NCBI RefSeq assembly: GCF_024498075.1
Contig: NZ_JANHOF010000001.1
Span: 310,001 to 374,000 of the forward strand
Length of the DNA: 64,000 nt
Source of the DNA: Paenibacillus mendelii
Lineage (GTDB): Bacteria > Bacillota > Bacilli > Paenibacillales > Paenibacillaceae
Reading direction: 5' to 3'
Under the pieces are notes generated by a model, which worked only from the letters and a program-made list of their open reading frames with translations, did not search any database and was not told the DNA's origin. Position 1 is the stretch's first letter. Every line of letters starts with the position of its first letter. The translations under genes were made by a program, and so were the position numbers. This document shows, piece by piece, positions 8,076 through 50,745 of the stretch.

Positions 8076-9149
8076 TCAAAATATGCTAGGCCCTTCCCGA
8101 AAATCTATGTCTACCGCCCATTGCGGATATTGCTTGCCAAACTGCTCCAGTGCTGCCACTAGCTCATTCAAGCCTTCGGGATCGGATTCACGAATAAAAG
8201 CCGTGTCCAGAATCTGAAGACGTTTATGTCTGGAGCCAGGAGCGCCCTCGATCATTTTTTGTACAAACTCGTCCATCCCGACATGGAAACAGCAATTGAA
8301 GAATGCAAATCGATCCTTCCAGTCCGGGCTGTTTGATTGATCGGGGATATGAACGACCATCGTCTGCAGATCCCATATATCCAACTTATTGCCATCCGGA
8401 TCATAGAGCTGGAACTGGTAACCGCAGCCTTCCCGATCCAGAATTTCTTCCTGCACCCGCTGTCTACTGTCGATCATCCGTCGATGGAACGCTTCAACTC
8501 CGTTCATCTGCACCATAGCGATCGCCATATGCTGAATTTCTCCAGCACCCGTATAGAAATTTAAGGTTCGTCCTGGCTCAATGGATCGATAGAAATGAAA
8601 CTCCTGCCCTAAACTCGTCATGGGCTGTCCTGAAACACTCCTTTCAATCCCAAGAAAATCTGTATACCAACTATAGGTAACTGCTCGATCCTTAACAGGA
8701 AAGAATAACGCGGCCACCCCGATTAAAGCCGGCACACCTTCACGTAGCGGTTGTGTTTGCGTATCAGAGCGCTGCCACACTTGAAACTTGTTACCTTGCG
8801 GATCGGTATAAACAAACATAAGTCCCGACTTGTCCACATCATGAAGAGGTTCCAATTTCACATGAGCAGCCGACAGACGTTCATATAACTCTTCTATTGC
8901 ATCCGTTTCGAAGCGGACAGCAAACATTTCATAAGTTTCACCAGGAATCCATTCATCCGTCCAGAAATTGCAGGTCAATCCTTTCTCTTGGGTCGTCTCC
9001 CAGAACAGAGACAGGTTTCGCGCACTTGCAGAATTGAAATATTTCTCGTACCACTGGCAGATCTCATTGCCGTTATCGACCGGCAAGTAAAGGCTTCCGA
9101 TATTGTTGAATATCGTTTGGGTCGTTACGGATTGTATGGATTCACTCAT
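8076..9149 (-). CDS. Two-domain VOC protein with a C-terminal extension
   Basis: A 357-residue protein. VOC domain 1 covers ~15-130 ('LYLPVDNGNEICQWYEKYF' ... 'FVYTDPQGNKFQVWQ'). Domain 2 covers ~145-265 ('ALFFPVKDRAVTYSWYTDF' ... 'FQLYDPDGNKLDIWD'). The last ~85 residues ('FAFFNCCFHVGMDEFVQKM' to 'VDIDFREGPSIF') match neither domain and look like a partial third fold of unknown type. ATG at 9149 is preferred over 9194 because AGGAG lies 10 bases upstream and the extra 15 residues are not domain-like. It is 126 bp upstream of the AraC gene on the same strand. Confidence 0.78.
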   Translation of the reverse strand: MSESIQSVTTQTIFNNIGSLYLPVDNGNEICQWYEKYFNSASARNLSLFWETTQEKGLTCNFWTDEWIPGETYEMFAVRFETDAIEELYERLSAAHVKLEPLHDVDKSGLMFVYTDPQGNKFQVWQRSDTQTQPLREGVPALIGVAALFFPVKDRAVTYSWYTDFLGIERSVSGQPMTSLGQEFHFYRSIEPGRTLNFYTGAGEIQHMAIAMVQMNGVEAFHRRMIDSRQRVQEEILDREGCGYQFQLYDPDGNKLDIWDLQTMVVHIPDQSNSPDWKDRFAFFNCCFHVGMDEFVQKMIEGAPGSRHKRLQILDTAFIRESDPEGLNELVAALEQFGKQYPQWAVDIDFREGPSIF

Positions 9150-9212
9150 TTTCAATTCGCTCCTATTATCTGGATTAAGATGCTTCGTCACCAACTACAT
9201 TACCATATTTAG

Positions 9213-9329: not shown

Positions 9330-9375
9330 CTACAGTGGATGCTGACAAACCTATTTATCGATCATGATTATGGGG

Positions 9376-9510
9376 GATGTGTCTCCTTACGGTTGCTGTT
9401 GGAATCGTGAAATTGGGATTAAGTAAACTCGCGTCAAGGAGATTTCACGATTCCAAAGGCAAACGCTGTCGCTCCTACAGAAGATACATCCTCTCATTTC
9501 TTTATCGATA
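9376..9510. repeat. Dispersed imperfect palindromic repeat, copy 1
   Basis: About 115 bases of self-complementary sequence plus a shared ~20-base tail. The inner arms GGAATCGTGAAAT (9401-9413) and GATTTCACGATTCC (9441-9454) are inverted repeats. The outer arms starting GATGTGTCTCC (9376) and ending AGATACATC (9490) also pair imperfectly. A second copy about 88% identical by eye lies at 49216-49346. It contains no reading frame, lies between gene remnants, and is directly beyond an amidase-remnant terminator. It may be a miniature inverted-repeat element or a structured RNA. Confidence 0.8.
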
Positions 9511-9519
9511 TAATGAGAA

Positions 9520-9561
9520 AAGAAAAATGATGGTACAGGAATAGTTCCCTGCACCACCATT
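9520..9561 (-). terminator. Terminator of the lost amidase gene
   Basis: An imperfect stem (AATGGTGGTGCAGGGA against TCCTGTACCATCATT on the minus strand, 9526-9561) is followed by TTTTTCTTTTC. It starts at the stop codon of the amidase remnant. Confidence 0.6.
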
Positions 9562-9733: not shown

Positions 9734-10249
9734 TCAAACACGCTTCAGATAGAAATAGATCAAGTCATCTCGCAGCTCGACTTCCCTTTGAAATCCGAGC
9801 TGGTTCATGAGATGTATGGATCGCTCATTCTCGGGTTCAACCGTTGCATCGATAACATCCAGCTTCATCCCCGTAAAACCAAATTCAATAACGGTTTGCA
9901 TGGCCTCACGCATGAATCCATTGCCCCAGTAGAGCTTAGACAAATCAAAGCCGACCTCTGCAGTAAACGCGTCATTCGTATTTCTCAGATAATGGAAGCC
10001 GCATGTACCCAGGAAGGTATGATTCATCTTGTCATACAGCCCCCATCGGCATCCAGCATCATCCAGATGATATTGGATAATTTCTTCGGCTTCCTTCCTA
10101 TCCTTACATGGTTCAATATCCATATACCGCGTCACTTCGCTGTCCGAGAAATGATGATAGACCTTTTCTGAATCTGCGAGAGTTAGCAGCCTTAACCGGA
10201 TTCGCTTTGTCTCTAATTCAGGAAACGCTATTTTTCTATTGCTTGACAT
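9734..10249 (-). CDS. GNAT acetyltransferase, RimJ/RimL type
   Basis: The 171-residue product has the RimJ/L layout: 'LETKRIRLRLLTLADSEKVY' at the N-terminus, a central 'AEVGFDLSKLYWGNGFMREA' acetyl-CoA-binding motif, and 'VEPENERSIHLMNQLGFQRE' at the C-terminus. Such enzymes acetylate protein N-termini or small molecules in the cytoplasm. ATG at 10249 is preferred over 10270 because TGGGGT lies 7 bases upstream and the family usually starts near this point. It follows the membrane AraC gene by 70 bp on the same strand. Confidence 0.85.
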   Translation of the reverse strand: MSSNRKIAFPELETKRIRLRLLTLADSEKVYHHFSDSEVTRYMDIEPCKDRKEAEEIIQYHLDDAGCRWGLYDKMNHTFLGTCGFHYLRNTNDAFTAEVGFDLSKLYWGNGFMREAMQTVIEFGFTGMKLDVIDATVEPENERSIHLMNQLGFQREVELRDDLIYFYLKRV

Positions 10250-10319
10250 GATATAACCCCATTTTTCCAAAATAAGTCAAGTTGTCTGATCTTAATCATG
10301 TGTACGACTACCAGTTCCT

Positions 10320-40203: not shown

Positions 40204-43200
40204 CTATCTTCTGCCCAGGTTGTTCTTGACGACAGCCACATCGTGTTTGTCAATGTCTCCATCTTTGTCCGTATCATAGCGGACTCTGTCGCCTTCCGGC
40301 TGCTTACCAACGACTTTCGCGATGGCAGCAATGTCCAATAAATCGACGCGGCCATTGCGGTTGAAGTCTCCCACATACATGGTCATCGGCTTTACAGTTA
40401 CAATGGTTTCTTTCTTGCCGGGAACGACATGACGCTCGCTCTTCACATATGAATTCGCATGGATTTCAACGGTGTACGCATGTCTTTCTTCGAACGGAAT
40501 CGTATATTTCCCCTGTACATCGGTCACCGTCTCCGCAACGACCTGTTTCCCCTTCTTCAATCGAACCGTAAACCCGCTAAGATCATTCAGCTTATGAAGC
40601 TTCGGTACGACGACGGATCCTTGAAGCGTATATCTAGCCTCCGGCTCCTTCTCTTGAATCTCGATTGCGACCGGCTGCGTGTAAAGATCATAGCTGTTGC
40701 CCAGATCTGTTGTGAACGAATACCTTAGCAGGACATGCGCCGTGCCAGGCTTAACCGCCGTTACCCGATTACCGTCAATAGTCGCGAGATCCGCTCCATC
40801 GATCGCTAGGACCGTTGGTGTTACTTCGTTCTGATCGCCCTTGTACGTCTTTGTGATGGCGGTCAAATCGGCACTTTCGCCTACCTTCAATTGAATGCTC
40901 TCTTGTTTGGCCGCGATATCGGAAGCCCAGTTCGAAGCCCAATTCGCATAATCGGTCGTGAGTCCGTACGTGCCTAGCTGATAATATTGCACGAAGGTTC
41001 CTTGATCACGGTATGTCCATGGCCATATCGTAATCCCGCGATGTTTGGAGGCCTCCATAAAGTTCTTGCCGAGTCCAGGATAGCTCGTATTGAATGTCGC
41101 GTTAAGCGGCTGGATCGCCTGCAGCGTCGTTCGCAGGGATTTGCTGATATTCGCTTCATTCGCATAGCCGCCAGTCAGGTATCCGACCGACATGCCAGGC
41201 ATCTTCTGACCAAGCAGCTTCAGCTGCTCGCCATTGAATGAAATGACAACGACCTGATCCTCGACTCCTTTCTCATTAATGAGCTGCACGAGTGCATCAA
41301 TGATTTCTGGCTTATAGCTCTTGATTTCCACGAAATGAAGTAAATCCTTGCCTTTATACGTATCGAAAAATTCAGCAAGCGTCGGAATCTGTGCATTCGG
41401 ATATTGAGCCGGGAATTGCTTATTCGCTTTCAACAGCTTCAACTCAGCCATCGTGTAATCCTCGATGTTGCCCGTTCCATTCGTCGTTCTCTCCAACGTA
41501 GGATCATGCATGATGACAATTTGATTATCTTTTGTCAGATAAATATCGTTCTCGACGACATCCGCGCCGTAATCATAGGCAAGGCTCGCACCTTCCAGCG
41601 TATTCTCCGGTGCAATTGCCGGAATTCCGCGATGGCCGATCATAAGCGGCTTGCGAATCAGTGTAGTCTGATTATCATATACGCTGAGGGCATTCTTCGC
41701 CATAGCCGGCCGATCGGTAACGATCCCGTTCGTACCTGCTGTAATGAGCTGATGAAGCTCCAGCGAACCGTCTGCTTGACCGGTAGTTTTCGCCCACACG
41801 GTTATTAACCGTTCCTGCAAATACGCCGTGTTCTCACGTGACACCGCGTCCGCAGGAAGTAATGCGATCTTGGCCAAGCTGGCATTGGTCGTACGACGAA
41901 TATCCATCAATGCCTCATGACTGAGCGTGCCTGCCGATTGAAAATCGACAATGCCGCGAAGGATCGGATACGCCAATCTCGCCTTCTTCACGAGCTCGCC
42001 CTGGCTGGAGACAATGAACGCATCCTCCAGCTGCTGTGCCTTCATCCACGCGACCACTGCGTCAACCGCAGCTTCATCTTTCACGTAGAAAGCCGGGATG
42101 ATTCGGCCGCTGATGATATCGACGACATCGGATACGGTACCAATGACATCGTTACCGGTTGAATCCGTTACATTCAGCGCAGCATCCACGTGCAGCATAA
42201 CCGTAGCAGGTGTTGCATCACCCGTCAATTGGGCTAATTCAGCAGCACTATTAACCGCAGCGACGATTGAAGGCGCGAGCGAGATGGATGTCTGCGGCTC
42301 CATCACATTGACGAACCGTTCAGCGGGCAGTGGCGGCAATGAATTCAACTGAAGCGTTACCTTCACATTGTCCACTTTCATCTGGCTGCCGTTCGCTTGC
42401 AGTCCGATTGTACCTGAAGCATAAGCGGTTGCCGCTTCCGAATCGATCAGAACGGTACCGTCGATCGACTGCTGAACACGGTTTCCTTTTGCGATGACTT
42501 GATAATGATACATTTTTGCCGCTTGGATGGCTTCCGAATACGAAGCGGTCTCCATGACGTTCCAGCCATTGGCTGGTGTACGCTCAGCAAACTCCGTTCC
42601 ATTGGCCGTGGTTGCATTCTGTCTAACGGCCATTTGATAGTAAGGATAATCGTTATTCTGGATGCGGTACATGATGGAGTTCCACCGCGACGAGTCGTTC
42701 ACCGCCGCATGCGTAATGTCCGCTTCAATCCGGTAATCTCCGAACAAGCCCAAATAATCAGGCAGCGTAAGACGTGACGGATTATCCGGGCTTGTCCGCG
42801 CATCGAGCTCCAGCACGCCGCCGTTTACCGCTGCTTTGGCAGCTGTCGTTCCTTCAATTCGGGTCCATCCCTCCGGGAGAGTCCCATTCGGTACTGCGTC
42901 GAAATTCTCCTCGTACAAGACATATTCTTCATCGTCAGTATTTTTCGCCACGACGATCAATTGGGCGTTCGCTCCATCCTTCTCGGCTTTCACCTTGAAG
43001 ATACCGGCCCGTTCTGTACTGGTTAGCATGCCATCAACGATGTCGACACCTTCATCGATCGCGGTCCACGTAAGAGCGTCGCCGCTTAGCTCCGCTGTCG
43101 TTAGATCGTTCATCTCTGCAGAGAAGACGAGTGCTTGCAGATCGATCGTTTCGCCTGCATTTGCCAATAGATAGCCTTTGTCATGCGCCAGCTTGACGAC

Positions 43201-44814
43201 CTTCGCCCCCCCGGTAGTAGAAGGCGTTACTACGATCGTGGATTCTGCTGTCGCATTGCCGTAAACCGCCTTCACCTGAGCTTCCCCTTCACGGACCGGT
43301 ACGATCTGGTTGTTTACGATCCGGATGACACTCTCGTCCGATGAGTACAGCTTCACCCGGTTAGCGGGGACGGATTCGTTAATGCCATCCGAGTACAAGG
43401 CTTGGAAGCTCACCGGCGCAGCTCCGCTCAATGCTTCGAGCGTATCCGCTGCGGTCATATCGAATTGGGTTACGGTTATCCGCGTTACCTTCACATTATC
43501 GAAGGCCACCTTGCTCTGATCGGCTTGCAGACCGACTTTCCCGCGGGAGAGTAAATTAAGATCTAAGATGTTCTCTGTCAGCAGCGTATAGGCTGGGTCA
43601 GATGCCGCTTTAATGTATTCCTTAACATTGTTGTCATACACTCTCAGTTTGAACGAGTACGCGGTATTCATGACAAGCGGGGTGCCCCAGGAACCCTTCA
43701 CAGGAACGATCCAGCTGTTCTCCGGTGTTCGGTATGCAATCTCATAGCTTCCATTCTGCCTGACTGCCATTTGGTTGTAAGGGTGCTTGCCATTCGAAGG
43801 AACCCGGAACATCACCCCTGCCCATCTAGCGGAATCCAGCGCTTCCTGGAAAGTAACGTCTGCTTCCACCGTATAATTATCCCATTGCACGGGTGCGGTA
43901 ATCCGGGCTTGCTTGCCGGCGCTGCTGCCGTCAAACACGAGCTGTCCGCCCTCCCCGTTTGCCCCCTGCACGACGGACATGGGCAGGCTGCCTGCATTGA
44001 CATCGGATATCCATCCGAATGGCGTTTCTCCGTCAGCATATCCATCGAAGTTCTCATCCAGCAGAAGGTCGCTGACCGGACCGTCGACAGGACTGGACTC
44101 GTCCAGCAGCAGAGTGCCGTATCCGCTGGTATCATTCCAGAAGGTGTTGATCATGTTGTAATTGCTCCACATACTGCTCACAGCCGGCGTTTCTTCCGTA
44201 TCGCGGTCGGTTACGCCGATCTGCATACCGAGCTCCTTCCGCTGTACCGGATCGAAGTCGAGCATGTCCCACGGTATCGCAATTTCAGCCGACCAGCCGC
44301 TGGCTGTCGTCTGAATCGCGCGCAGAATCTTCTTCTCGTCCTTGCCTGCGTGATTAGGTGCCGCACCGAAATAGAAGGCCGGAGTCGTCGTATCCGGCTG
44401 GTAGACGAGCCCGATCTGCATATCATTTGCGATGAACGGTGCCGATTGATGCAGCGTTGGATCGAAGAATAGTCCGATATGATCCTGATCGAACCAGTAT
44501 CCGCCGCCATCGTGAATCAGCGCGTCATCCTCTATATTTACAGCTATGTATAGATAAGAATAGTCCCACATCATCCCGAAAGACGATGGCTGAACCGCGC
44601 CAGTGCCGATTTGAATCGGCATAGGTTGTGTTGCGTCCCACATGGATTCGTTTAACTGCCCATCGATTATCGGTGCTGTGAGCGTCTTCTGGATGTTCAG
44701 CGAGGTCCGCTCCGGATCGGCACTTACTTCGGCGGCAGCCATCGAGCCCGCGTCTAAAAACATAGAGCACAACAAAGACACCATTAATAAGGTCGCTATT
44801 ATTTTCCTGCTCAT
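40204..44814 (-). CDS. Secreted multidomain glycerophosphodiester phosphodiesterase with dockerin
   Basis: A 1536-residue exported protein. Approximate order: signal peptide 1-28; CBM9/DOMON-like 40-240 ('IDGQLNESMWDATQPM', 'FDQDHIGLFFDP'); laminin-G/DUF1080-like 250-455; bacterial Ig-like 455-640; second laminin-G-like 645-830; a degenerate GDPD-like barrel ~835-1045 lacking catalytic residues; a canonical GDPD ~1055-1300 with 'MIGHRGIPAIAPENTLEG' (His1061), 'DVVENDIYLTKD' and 'IVIMHDPTLERTT' (His1103); Ig-like; a carboxypeptidase-regulatory-like fold; and a type I dockerin (~1478-1536) with two Ca loops ('DFNRNGRVDLLD', 'DTDKDGDIDKHD'). It would cleave glycerophosphodiesters, possibly teichoic acid or lipid headgroups, outside the cell. 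No cohesin is encoded nearby. It appears monocistronic. Confidence 0.87.
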   Translation of the reverse strand: MSRKIIATLLMVSLLCSMFLDAGSMAAAEVSADPERTSLNIQKTLTAPIIDGQLNESMWDATQPMPIQIGTGAVQPSSFGMMWDYSYLYIAVNIEDDALIHDGGGYWFDQDHIGLFFDPTLHQSAPFIANDMQIGLVYQPDTTTPAFYFGAAPNHAGKDEKKILRAIQTTASGWSAEIAIPWDMLDFDPVQRKELGMQIGVTDRDTEETPAVSSMWSNYNMINTFWNDTSGYGTLLLDESSPVDGPVSDLLLDENFDGYADGETPFGWISDVNAGSLPMSVVQGANGEGGQLVFDGSSAGKQARITAPVQWDNYTVEADVTFQEALDSARWAGVMFRVPSNGKHPYNQMAVRQNGSYEIAYRTPENSWIVPVKGSWGTPLVMNTAYSFKLRVYDNNVKEYIKAASDPAYTLLTENILDLNLLSRGKVGLQADQSKVAFDNVKVTRITVTQFDMTAADTLEALSGAAPVSFQALYSDGINESVPANRVKLYSSDESVIRIVNNQIVPVREGEAQVKAVYGNATAESTIVVTPSTTGGAKVVKLAHDKGYLLANAGETIDLQALVFSAEMNDLTTAELSGDALTWTAIDEGVDIVDGMLTSTERAGIFKVKAEKDGANAQLIVVAKNTDDEEYVLYEENFDAVPNGTLPEGWTRIEGTTAAKAAVNGGVLELDARTSPDNPSRLTLPDYLGLFGDYRIEADITHAAVNDSSRWNSIMYRIQNNDYPYYQMAVRQNATTANGTEFAERTPANGWNVMETASYSEAIQAAKMYHYQVIAKGNRVQQSIDGTVLIDSEAATAYASGTIGLQANGSQMKVDNVKVTLQLNSLPPLPAERFVNVMEPQTSISLAPSIVAAVNSAAELAQLTGDATPATVMLHVDAALNVTDSTGNDVIGTVSDVVDIISGRIIPAFYVKDEAAVDAVVAWMKAQQLEDAFIVSSQGELVKKARLAYPILRGIVDFQSAGTLSHEALMDIRRTTNASLAKIALLPADAVSRENTAYLQERLITVWAKTTGQADGSLELHQLITAGTNGIVTDRPAMAKNALSVYDNQTTLIRKPLMIGHRGIPAIAPENTLEGASLAYDYGADVVENDIYLTKDNQIVIMHDPTLERTTNGTGNIEDYTMAELKLLKANKQFPAQYPNAQIPTLAEFFDTYKGKDLLHFVEIKSYKPEIIDALVQLINEKGVEDQVVVISFNGEQLKLLGQKMPGMSVGYLTGGYANEANISKSLRTTLQAIQPLNATFNTSYPGLGKNFMEASKHRGITIWPWTYRDQGTFVQYYQLGTYGLTTDYANWASNWASDIAAKQESIQLKVGESADLTAITKTYKGDQNEVTPTVLAIDGADLATIDGNRVTAVKPGTAHVLLRYSFTTDLGNSYDLYTQPVAIEIQEKEPEARYTLQGSVVVPKLHKLNDLSGFTVRLKKGKQVVAETVTDVQGKYTIPFEERHAYTVEIHANSYVKSERHVVPGKKETIVTVKPMTMYVGDFNRNGRVDLLDIAAIAKVVGKQPEGDRVRYDTDKDGDIDKHDVAVVKNNLGRR

Positions 44815-48363: not shown

Positions 48364-49173
48364 ATGAATGAGATTGAACAATATGAGTTTGACCGATCGG
48401 GATACCTGATCATTAAGAACTTGATTACTCCGGAGCAAGTAGCAGCTATTGCTGAGGTAGTGGATCGATTGGAAGCGCATGCAGCTGAGCATGTTCACCT
48501 GCCCCCGCGCAAGCAGAGCTGCTGGGGCTCGGAACACCATTACAATGAAGAGCTGAGCTATCACGCATATGGGGAACAGGCAATAGGCAAAACGCTGGTC
48601 ATCGAAGACTTTTTCAATACGGATCCCGTGTTTGATTGTCTGGTGGACCACGAGCCGACGATGGCTTACATCCGCCGAATCGTGCAAGGACCGATCCGTA
48701 TTAACAACTCGGAAATCCGGATCCGCTACACAGGCAATGCATCAGGCACTCACATGGGCGGCCCTATCGACCACAAGTACCGATACAATTTTAATCAGAA
48801 CGGGATCGACTGCATGATGGTGCGCATGGTTTATTTTCTACAGCCGGTTACGAACGATCAAGGCGCCTTCTGTGTCGTTCCCGGAACCCACAAGACGAAC
48901 TGGCGCTCGCCTTACGGCAGCAACCCGGATGCGGAGCCGGGCATGATCGGGCTTGAGGTGGAAGCAGGTGACGCGATCTTATTCACGGAGCATCTGCGTC
49001 ACGGCGGGTTAACCAATCATTCGGAACAGACCCGGAAGACGCTTCATGTCGGCTATGGGCCTGCATGGATGATGTCGCAGAACATCGCCACGATGGACGA
49101 ACCGCAATTCATCACCGATACAGCACTCTCCCGTTATACCGAAGCTCAGCGCAAGCTGTTTCGCATTATGTAA
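48364..49173 (+). CDS. Phytanoyl-CoA dioxygenase (PhyH)-like oxygenase
   Basis: A 269-residue Fe(II)/2-oxoglutarate oxygenase: 'YEFDRSGYLIIKNLITPEQV' (typical PhyH start), 'GNASGTHMGGPIDH' (iron-binding His and Asp in HMGGPID, a different spacing from the HxD of the other two), 'VYFLQPVTNDQGAFCVVPGT', 'AGDAILFTEHLRHGGLTNHS' and 'RKTLHVGYGP'. AAGGAGGAG lies 8-10 bases before the ATG. It follows an AraC gene. The dispersed repeat copy 2 sits between its stop and its terminator, so it may be transcribed as the mRNA 3' end. Confidence 0.87.
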   Translation: MNEIEQYEFDRSGYLIIKNLITPEQVAAIAEVVDRLEAHAAEHVHLPPRKQSCWGSEHHYNEELSYHAYGEQAIGKTLVIEDFFNTDPVFDCLVDHEPTMAYIRRIVQGPIRINNSEIRIRYTGNASGTHMGGPIDHKYRYNFNQNGIDCMMVRMVYFLQPVTNDQGAFCVVPGTHKTNWRSPYGSNPDAEPGMIGLEVEAGDAILFTEHLRHGGLTNHSEQTRKTLHVGYGPAWMMSQNIATMDEPQFITDTALSRYTEAQRKLFRIM

Positions 49174-49215
49174 ACACTAAAAAAGACTTTCTCATTTATT
49201 CAATCAAGGTGAGGA

Positions 49216-49346
49216 GATGTATCTCCTTCCGGTTGCTGTTGGAATCGTGAAATTGGAATAGTTAAACTCGCAGCAAGGAGATTTCACGATTCCAAAGGCA
49301 AACGCTGACGCTCCTACAGGAGATACACTCTCTCTTTTTATCGATA
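49216..49346. repeat. Dispersed imperfect palindromic repeat, copy 2
   Basis: The second copy of the element at 9376, with the same inner arms (GGAATCGTGAAAT / GATTTCACGATTCC) and the same ~20-base tail ending TTTATCGATA-like. It lies 42 bp after the PhyH stop and 32 bp before the terminator stem. The rest of the gap 49174-49554 holds only that terminator. Confidence 0.8.
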
Positions 49347-49378: not shown

Positions 49379-49421
49379 AAAAATGGTAGTTCAGGCCCTC
49401 GAGACCTGAACTGCCATTTTT
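49379..49421. terminator. Bidirectional terminator after PhyH and repeat copy 2
   Basis: AAAAATGGTAGTTCAGG pairs with CCTGAACTGCCATTTTT (one G-T pair) around a 9-base loop, with T and A tracts at the ends. Confidence 0.88.
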
Positions 49422-49554: not shown

Positions 49555-50637
49555 CTACCTGCGGACTTGCGGAACATCCAGCCAGACATTGCCTCTTTCG
49601 ACGGCTTCCTGTGCCAGGATCCCAGGCAGTGTATATTCGATTGCCCGGTAGACATCGATAGGCGGTGCAGCCGAACGGTTCAAGCTATCGATAAAATCAC
49701 GGATCAGATAATACTCCGACGTCCCGTGCCCGCCTCTCGTCGCTTCTCTCGGCGCATTCGGATCGGTAATCGGACAAGGGAGCCGCACAGCACCTCTCTC
49801 ATAGGCGGGATCTCCTTCAATATACTTCCATCCTTCGCTATCATAGCCCGTGCGGCCGTTCTCCATCTGGCCCTTCGAGCCATACACCACGTAATGTCCG
49901 ATTGCCGGCAATCTTGATGCGACCGAGCTGCGAAGCAGTTTGATCGTCGTGCCCTTGGCCGTCTCGAATAAGGCTGCTTGCATATCGATGCAACCTGGTC
50001 CCCCATGCGGGATAATCGTTTGCGAATTGCCCGCGCCGGTTGCACGCACGATTCGGTCGCCGGTCATCTCAAGAATAGGACCAAGCGAATGGGAACAATA
50101 GTGAAGCGGCGGACGCTGGTTGCGCCAATAGAACGCTCCAGTATGAGGGTTTAGGATTCGATCCCGAATTTCATGCACGTATTCGCATTCCGCATGAAAG
50201 ATCGTTCCCAGCTCACCGCTTCGAACCGACTTGATCCAATCCTGGATGAAATGAAAATAGACCGTATTCTCCGCCATCATATAGGTTAATCCCGTTCGTT
50301 CCACCGCATCGATGATACGAAAGCAATCTTCGACAGTGGAAGCCGCGGTCACCTCACTTAACACATGCTTGCCCGCTTCCAAGGCATCAATAGTCTGCTG
50401 CGCGTGGAAGGGAACCGGAGAACCGATCATCACGAAGTCCGTATCCGCATTCAAGAAATCCGCGTAGCTCTCGTAACGCGCATGATCCGGTATATGGAGT
50501 TCATCTCCGATCTTGCCCAGCACCTCAGCATCAGGATCACACAGCGCCGTCACGTTAATTTGGGAATGATGCATGTATGCGGCAGATCGATGGGAGCCTC
50601 CCAGCCCAACGAGACCCATTTTCCAAATCTTATCCAC
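49555..50637 (-). CDS. Gfo/Idh/MocA-family NAD(P)-dependent oxidoreductase
   Basis: A 360-residue enzyme. The Rossmann fold starts 'WKMGLVGLGGSHRSAAYMHH' (GxGxxH-like), with 'VTALCDPDAEVL' and the family motif 'GKHVLSEVTAASTVED', where the usual E-K-P is replaced by S-E-V-T. The C-terminal domain carries 'PPLHYCSHSLGPILEMTG', containing the catalytic-type His. It oxidises or reduces a sugar or cyclitol. Start GTG at 50637 has GAGGAG 11 bases upstream. It follows the ABC operon 50797-54057 beyond a terminator and probably handles the imported sugar. Confidence 0.85.
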   Translation of the reverse strand: MDKIWKMGLVGLGGSHRSAAYMHHSQINVTALCDPDAEVLGKIGDELHIPDHARYESYADFLNADTDFVMIGSPVPFHAQQTIDALEAGKHVLSEVTAASTVEDCFRIIDAVERTGLTYMMAENTVYFHFIQDWIKSVRSGELGTIFHAECEYVHEIRDRILNPHTGAFYWRNQRPPLHYCSHSLGPILEMTGDRIVRATGAGNSQTIIPHGGPGCIDMQAALFETAKGTTIKLLRSSVASRLPAIGHYVVYGSKGQMENGRTGYDSEGWKYIEGDPAYERGAVRLPCPITDPNAPREATRGGHGTSEYYLIRDFIDSLNRSAAPPIDVYRAIEYTLPGILAQEAVERGNVWLDVPQVRR

Positions 50638-50745
50638 TTCTATCACATCTCCTCTTCCACTATCGAATCCCAAGACTTATAGATAATTCCATATTATAGC
50701 AGGATCTATATGATTACAATTACCTACAATTCTAGTGGAACGACT

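Follow-up and report, generated by a model that had tools for sequence, protein, structure and literature searches.

Introduction

The genomes of the Bacillus cereus group carry the intergenic repeats bcr1-bcr18, of which bcr1-3 resemble miniature inverted-repeat transposable elements (MITEs) and often lie in untranslated regions (UTRs) or intercistronic regions, and bcr10 and bcr18 have a conserved secondary structure and are proposed to be RNA elements (PMC3446304). The SPRITE repeat of Streptococcus pneumoniae resembles a terminator (PMC3049150), and bacterial MITEs, of which Correia and ERIC are examples, can when transcribed be cut by RNase III and change mRNA levels (PMC10969869). Here we describe a structured element that occurs twice in a stretch of 64,000 nucleotides of Paenibacillus mendelii (contig NZ_JANHOF010000001.1, positions 310,001 to 374,000; hereafter the window) and whose core is widespread in the Paenibacillaceae. 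The element forms a high-copy family with a covarying fold and with transposon-type insertion in one lineage. We consider it probable, though by no means certain, that it is a structured RNA element dispersed by transposition, which folds in mRNA tails and in intercistronic gaps; the role of its core as RNA is one that we infer from sequence comparison.

The described systems closest to it in general behaviour are BOX, RUP and SPRITE of S. pneumoniae (PMC3049150), from which the Paenibacillaceae element differs in host group and in sequence, as well as by its constant interior and covarying three-way junction. It resembles the bcr repeats in that these too are intergenic repeats of Firmicutes that are MITE-like or structured, whereas the Paenibacillaceae family joins mobility and an RNA-like fold in one element, a distinction drawn from the descriptions of the bcr repeats and not from their sequences. 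Like bacterial MITEs such as Correia and ERIC the element is short, lacks an open reading frame (ORF), and has inverted ends and a target duplication, but its core is carried by varied terminal sequences and no parental insertion sequence (IS) was recognised. The REP/REPIN elements associated with RAYT (PMC2817692, PMC3733652) are likewise high-copy extragenic palindromes found in tandem clusters, whereas the Paenibacillaceae element is longer, is flanked by 8-bp target duplications and is accompanied by no RAYT either in the host genome or in that of P. baekrokdamisoli KCTC 33723 (G003). The element differs from these precedents in that its interior rather than its ends is constant, and this interior has the look of an RNA junction.

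A conserved fold in a high-copy family

An earlier note on the window reported two palindromic copies of about 88% identity that contain no reading frame. By global alignment and by BLAST the copies are 88% identical across ~138 bases, and a scan of the window with a covariance model (CM) returned exactly two matches, both on the minus strand:

9357..9509, minus strand: copy 1, subfamily A, from ATCGAT to ATCGAT; CM core 9364-9502
49200..49345, minus strand: copy 2, subfamily A, one ATCGAT end decayed; CM core 49205-49341

Both copies fold more stably than their dinucleotide shuffles, none of which equalled them (for copy 1, z is -4.4 on one strand and -4.7 on the other; for copy 2, -53.2 kcal/mol and z -5.6). 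ORFs of 30-61 aa run through or into the copies, yet none is confined to the element and none is common to the copies, and on both counts the earlier description holds. Rfam 15 gave no match in the window at gathering score, and at a relaxed threshold eight loci gave chance-level matches only.

The ~130-nt core, as predicted from the aligned copies, is a long hairpin broken by a compact three-way junction, and this junction appears unprompted when copy 2 and the G003 element are folded to minimum free energy. In the consensus structure of 75 distinct sequences 98.0% of the cells are paired and 17 of the 22 pairs show two-sided change, so that the pairing between the arms is conserved; the covariation score is 0.357 as compared to 0.149 upon shuffling (0/500 shuffles) and to at most 0.10 for slid versions. 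Among 384 distinct copies, compensatory changes are found in three of the four short junction pairs (26-105, 27-104 and 29-36), the unpaired adenines at positions 28, 99 and 108 are kept in 382-383 copies, and the apical loop is free to vary. Non-Watson-Crick cells of the forward strand are G-U more often than A-C (616 vs 204, and 219 vs 113 when the set is thinned to 85% identity), as predicted if this strand were under constraint as RNA.

The host genome (8.13 Mb, Paenibacillaceae) carries eight near-full-length subfamily A copies and one internally deleted copy according to BLAST, and 39 copies according to the CM, including a second subfamily, B. Starting from a related element in G003, matches were found in 214 of 297 Paenibacillaceae genomes, so the further copies in the genome and its relatives that the earlier note looked to are indeed there. 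Scoring stopped at 150 candidates per genome, which makes all copy numbers minimum values (148 or more in G003 and 150 or more in the genome G057); genes were called as long ORFs. Scanning the class Bacilli with strict filters gave matches in all 22 Paenibacillaceae genomes and in none of the 228 genomes of other families. One copy resembling subfamily A, 79% identical and having a different hairpin before its ATCGAT end, was found in G313, which belongs to another family of the order (L170); the C-terminus of the gene upstream of that copy resembles an IclR regulator by eye. Three Paenibacillus plasmid records carry copies without annotation, the annotated records examined leave the element unmarked, and no paper describing the repeat was found in the open-access library searched. 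As for a phage origin, there was no match among 50,697 phage records.

Some cores are interrupted, in one orientation or the other, by a second, smaller palindromic repeat of ~40 nt (TAAAAGCTTTCCGTAGGAAAGCTCGCTTCGGAAGCATATGC), which in other places is found in tandem; it was seen at L252:6048-6220, L044:1162-1332 and L084:1501-1675, and in the host genome at L065, about 1400-1480. Such an insert would fit the length of 162-174 nt seen in several dozen of the 150 copies listed for G057.

Mobility

The G003 unit is 225 bp long, has no frame common to the copies and ends in GGCTCTAAACCATAATCAGTGCTTG and CAAGCACTTATTTTAGTGTTGAGCC, forming the terminal inverted repeats GGCTC...GAGCC. The 8-bp flanks of 17 complete units agree at 94 of 136 positions, compared with 53.1 +/- 5.7 expected (0/20,000 permutations), and the duplicated 8-mers are 80% A+T. 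Having inverted ends and 8-bp target duplications, the element is a MITE-like mobile element in P. baekrokdamisoli. Its copies there are almost all intergenic, divergent gaps are under-used (6 of 54 sites vs 24% of intergenic bases), and two tandem arrays of four copies each repeat with a period of exactly 177 bp and have an identical internal junction (L117, about 3361.1-3361.8 kb; L118, about 914.7-915.4 kb). G057 carries copies in sense orientation between purB and purC, between purC and purS and between sdhA and sdhB (L494, L500), inside the conserved purine and succinate dehydrogenase operons, and in several relatives these same gaps measure 0 to 93 bases and hold no copy.

Alternatively, the element could be a purely selfish MITE. 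Its core would serve transposition only, as folded DNA or as a site bound by transposase, while the orientation bias described below would stem from insertion or replication and the copies would decay neutrally. The inverted ends together with the target duplications favour this explanation, as do the depletion of copies at divergent promoters, the copies on plasmids, the tandem arrays and the random orientation of the recently expanded G003 set. However, the usual pattern of a MITE is reversed: it is the interior that the subfamilies have in common, whereas each has ends of its own kind (GGCTC in G003, ATCGAT in A, whose inverted arms end in this motif, and TATAGA-TTGAAC in B as well as in G057). 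The covariation of junction helices of only two base pairs and the invariance of the unpaired adenines also speak against it, and so do the sense bias in many genomes and the slower evolution of the arms relative to the outer arms of the element at fixed loci. We hold this explanation to be rather unlikely.

The element could also be a REP/REPIN population moved by RAYT, a Y1 transposase, as it is palindromic, extragenic, multi-copy and often located at 3' ends. However, Y1_Tnp (PF01797) is absent from the host genome and from G003, the most copy-rich genome of the genus, under conditions in which control genomes gave matches, and neither the 225-bp unit length nor the 8-bp target duplications suit such a population; to our knowledge, target duplications are not expected from the REP/RAYT mechanism. 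We regard this origin as highly improbable. RAYT as the sole mobiliser is excluded for these two genomes, given the absence of Y1_Tnp.

Orientation and conservation at shared loci

Of the copies that lie between tandem genes in many named Paenibacillus genomes, G003 excluded, 38 are oriented like the genes and 10 against them (p 6e-5). Of the 150 G057 copies listed, 79% point with replication (p 2e-12), and in the G057 tandem-gene sample, which was stratified by orientation, 24 of 26 leading copies share the direction of the genes as compared to 5 of 16 lagging ones. Convergent sites, once weighted, show no bias (2 leading of about 34 sampled and 8 lagging of about 30), these numbers being too small to settle an effect of replication. 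The contrast between the recent, unbiased copies of G003 and the bias elsewhere hints at a sorting of orientation that follows insertion. The proposal of the earlier note that the element is a structured mRNA element thus finds support in the covariation, in the co-orientation outside G003 and in the purB-purC, purC-purS and sdhA-sdhB copies, transcription itself being what we infer.

Species of one genus have twenty element loci in common, and at these the identity of the arms is 93%, whereas the 45 bases adjoining them and the loop each reach 81%; the arms exceed the adjoining bases at 20/20 loci, and orthologous copies are more alike than paralogs (0.90 vs 0.80). This comparison is biased because the copies were chosen from the top scores. 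At 14 loci chosen mostly on a left-arm motif alone, a less biased set, the right arm is 85.6% identical as against 75.3% for the outer arms (12/14, p 0.02), while the loop reaches 78.8% and the distant flanks 85.1%. These values, of which the less biased set lends the weaker support, suggest selection in place.

Another possible reading is a regulatory RNA class, such as a riboswitch, a ribozyme or a protein-binding leader, that was spread for the most part by duplication and horizontal transfer and whose mobility was a late accident in one lineage. In its favour are the covariation, the RNA-like junction, the sense bias and the 20 or more loci that were retained vertically in different species. 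Such a class is at odds with the target duplications and inverted ends, with the hundreds of copies beside unrelated genes, where no downstream function is shared among the loci seen, and with the absence of the element from Rfam, and we judge it improbable.

Terminators and neighbouring genes

Read on the strand opposite to the plus strand of the window, every subfamily A copy consists of a hairpin, usually with a T-run, followed by 16-38 nt, ATCGATAAAG, the core and ATCGAT. The hairpin TGGTGGTGCAGG-N8-CCTGCACCACCA is common to four A copies. When up to 3 mismatches are allowed the host genome holds four matches of this motif, all of them adjoining element copies, so the hairpin behaves as part of the unit and looks like a component of it rather than an insertion target. 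The 3' end of the upstream gene faces the element at 8/8 subfamily A loci. A forward terminator was detected by script at 6 of 8 subfamily A loci, at 3 of 22 B loci and at 2 of 30 G003 loci, and on visual inspection two further A loci have a hairpin, which in one case lacks the T-run. The preference for terminators that the earlier note suspected is therefore a property of subfamily A, and as a general preference it is rejected by the B and G003 counts.

These counts also bear on whether the element is simply a terminator-associated palindrome, that is, an extended intrinsic terminator whose copies arise with terminators. Subfamily A always follows a hairpin, as such a palindrome would, whereas B and G003 copies rarely follow terminators; moreover, the PhyH ortholog of the genome G020 has its terminator and no element between stop and hairpin. 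The other subfamilies refute this explanation for the family, and we give it hardly any credence. G020 does carry a B-type copy just past the terminator of the PhyH ortholog (L169, about 1223-1353), on the opposite side of the hairpin from copy 2 of the window.

The surroundings of the two window copies are as follows:

8076..9194, minus strand: glyoxalase-domain gene (Pfam PF00903), downstream of copy 1 on the minus strand
9528..9559, minus strand: terminator hairpin beside copy 1, TGGTGGTGCAGG...CCTGTACCATCA then a T-run, common to other subfamily A copies
9734..10270, minus strand: GNAT acetyltransferase gene (Pfam PF13302), upstream of copy 1 on the minus strand
48364..49173, plus strand: PhyH-family gene (Pfam PF05721, E 3.7e-17), with copy 2 antisense in its 3' region
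49381..49419, no strand assigned: terminator-like hairpin beside copy 2, an altered yet still paired form of the subfamily A hairpin (oriented alignment)
49555..50673, minus strand: GFO/IDH/MocA oxidoreductase gene (Pfam PF01408), convergent to PhyH, with copy 2 in sense after its terminator

Since the hairpin at 49381-49419 is flanked by an A-run on one side and a T-run on the other, it looks like a bidirectional terminator shared by PhyH and the convergent oxidoreductase gene. The earlier note placed copy 2 between the PhyH stop and its terminator, which is correct as to the order (stop at 49173), although the terminator appears to be shared. It also placed copy 1 just beyond the terminator of an amidase remnant; the terminator is indeed there on the minus strand, and the remnant is plausible by eye, a 37-residue tail without Pfam match. 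Elsewhere in the window, 42354-42414 and 43482-43542 form a direct repeat, 70% identical, within an ORF of 1536 aa (40204-44814, minus strand), and this is probably a repeated protein domain.

Discussion

Based on our data we propose that copies of the element would be spread in trans by the transposase of an IS, and that most of those that survive would do so between genes. Sense copies would be kept preferentially, as the core may be transcribed with the neighbouring mRNA and fold there, and the folded core may act as an intercistronic or 3'-UTR hairpin of processing or stability, a function by which the insertion would become tolerable or even useful. Subfamily A would represent an old branch whose ends are ATCGAT and whose core is preceded, at a distance of 16-38 nt, by a terminator hairpin; carrying this hairpin of its own, it would therefore always be found at the 3' end of a gene.

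Besides the choice of top-scoring copies mentioned above, several observations weigh against this proposal. Subfamily A, the window copies included, gave no signal of target duplication (offsets -6 to +6, lengths 2-10); for the family as a whole, the miniature mobile element suggested by the earlier note is supported by the inverted ends, 8-bp duplications, empty gaps and dispersed copies. A search for an autonomous IS by means of solo ends in G003 recognised none, diverged ends not being searched; of the 44 end matches two lie outside the core list, one of which (L138) has no adjoining core and the other was left uninspected. The orientation of copies between tandem genes is random in G003 (same/opposite 15/15) and unbiased in subfamily B of the host (same/opposite 5/8), and the bias in G057 could come from replication instead of genes. 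Subfamily A copies lie past the terminator in sense and would be transcribed only upon read-through, and in the PhyH tail copy 2 runs antisense. At the 14 loci the right arm is about equal to the distant flanks, and a strand mutation bias could be partly behind the excess of G-U over A-C.

A bolder version of our proposal, which we offer as speculative and regard as doubtful, is that the core represents a hitherto undescribed class of RNA, perhaps a junction bound by protein or an element that is processed or cleaves itself, and that it hitch-hikes by recombination between the ends of different transposons. Such a core would have eased the cost of insertion into operons and would thereby have made a transposon remnant into a family-wide mRNA module in more than 150 copies per genome.

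The element, structured and absent from Rfam, is present in Paenibacillus genomes in numbers that range from dozens up to 150 or more. If the reading of the element as a transposon-dispersed structured RNA is true, many mRNAs would share one fold, and the family would provide a test case for transposon debris becoming an RNA regulator. Even if the element is purely selfish, it would be a useful marker in annotating genomes and in the search for its transposase.
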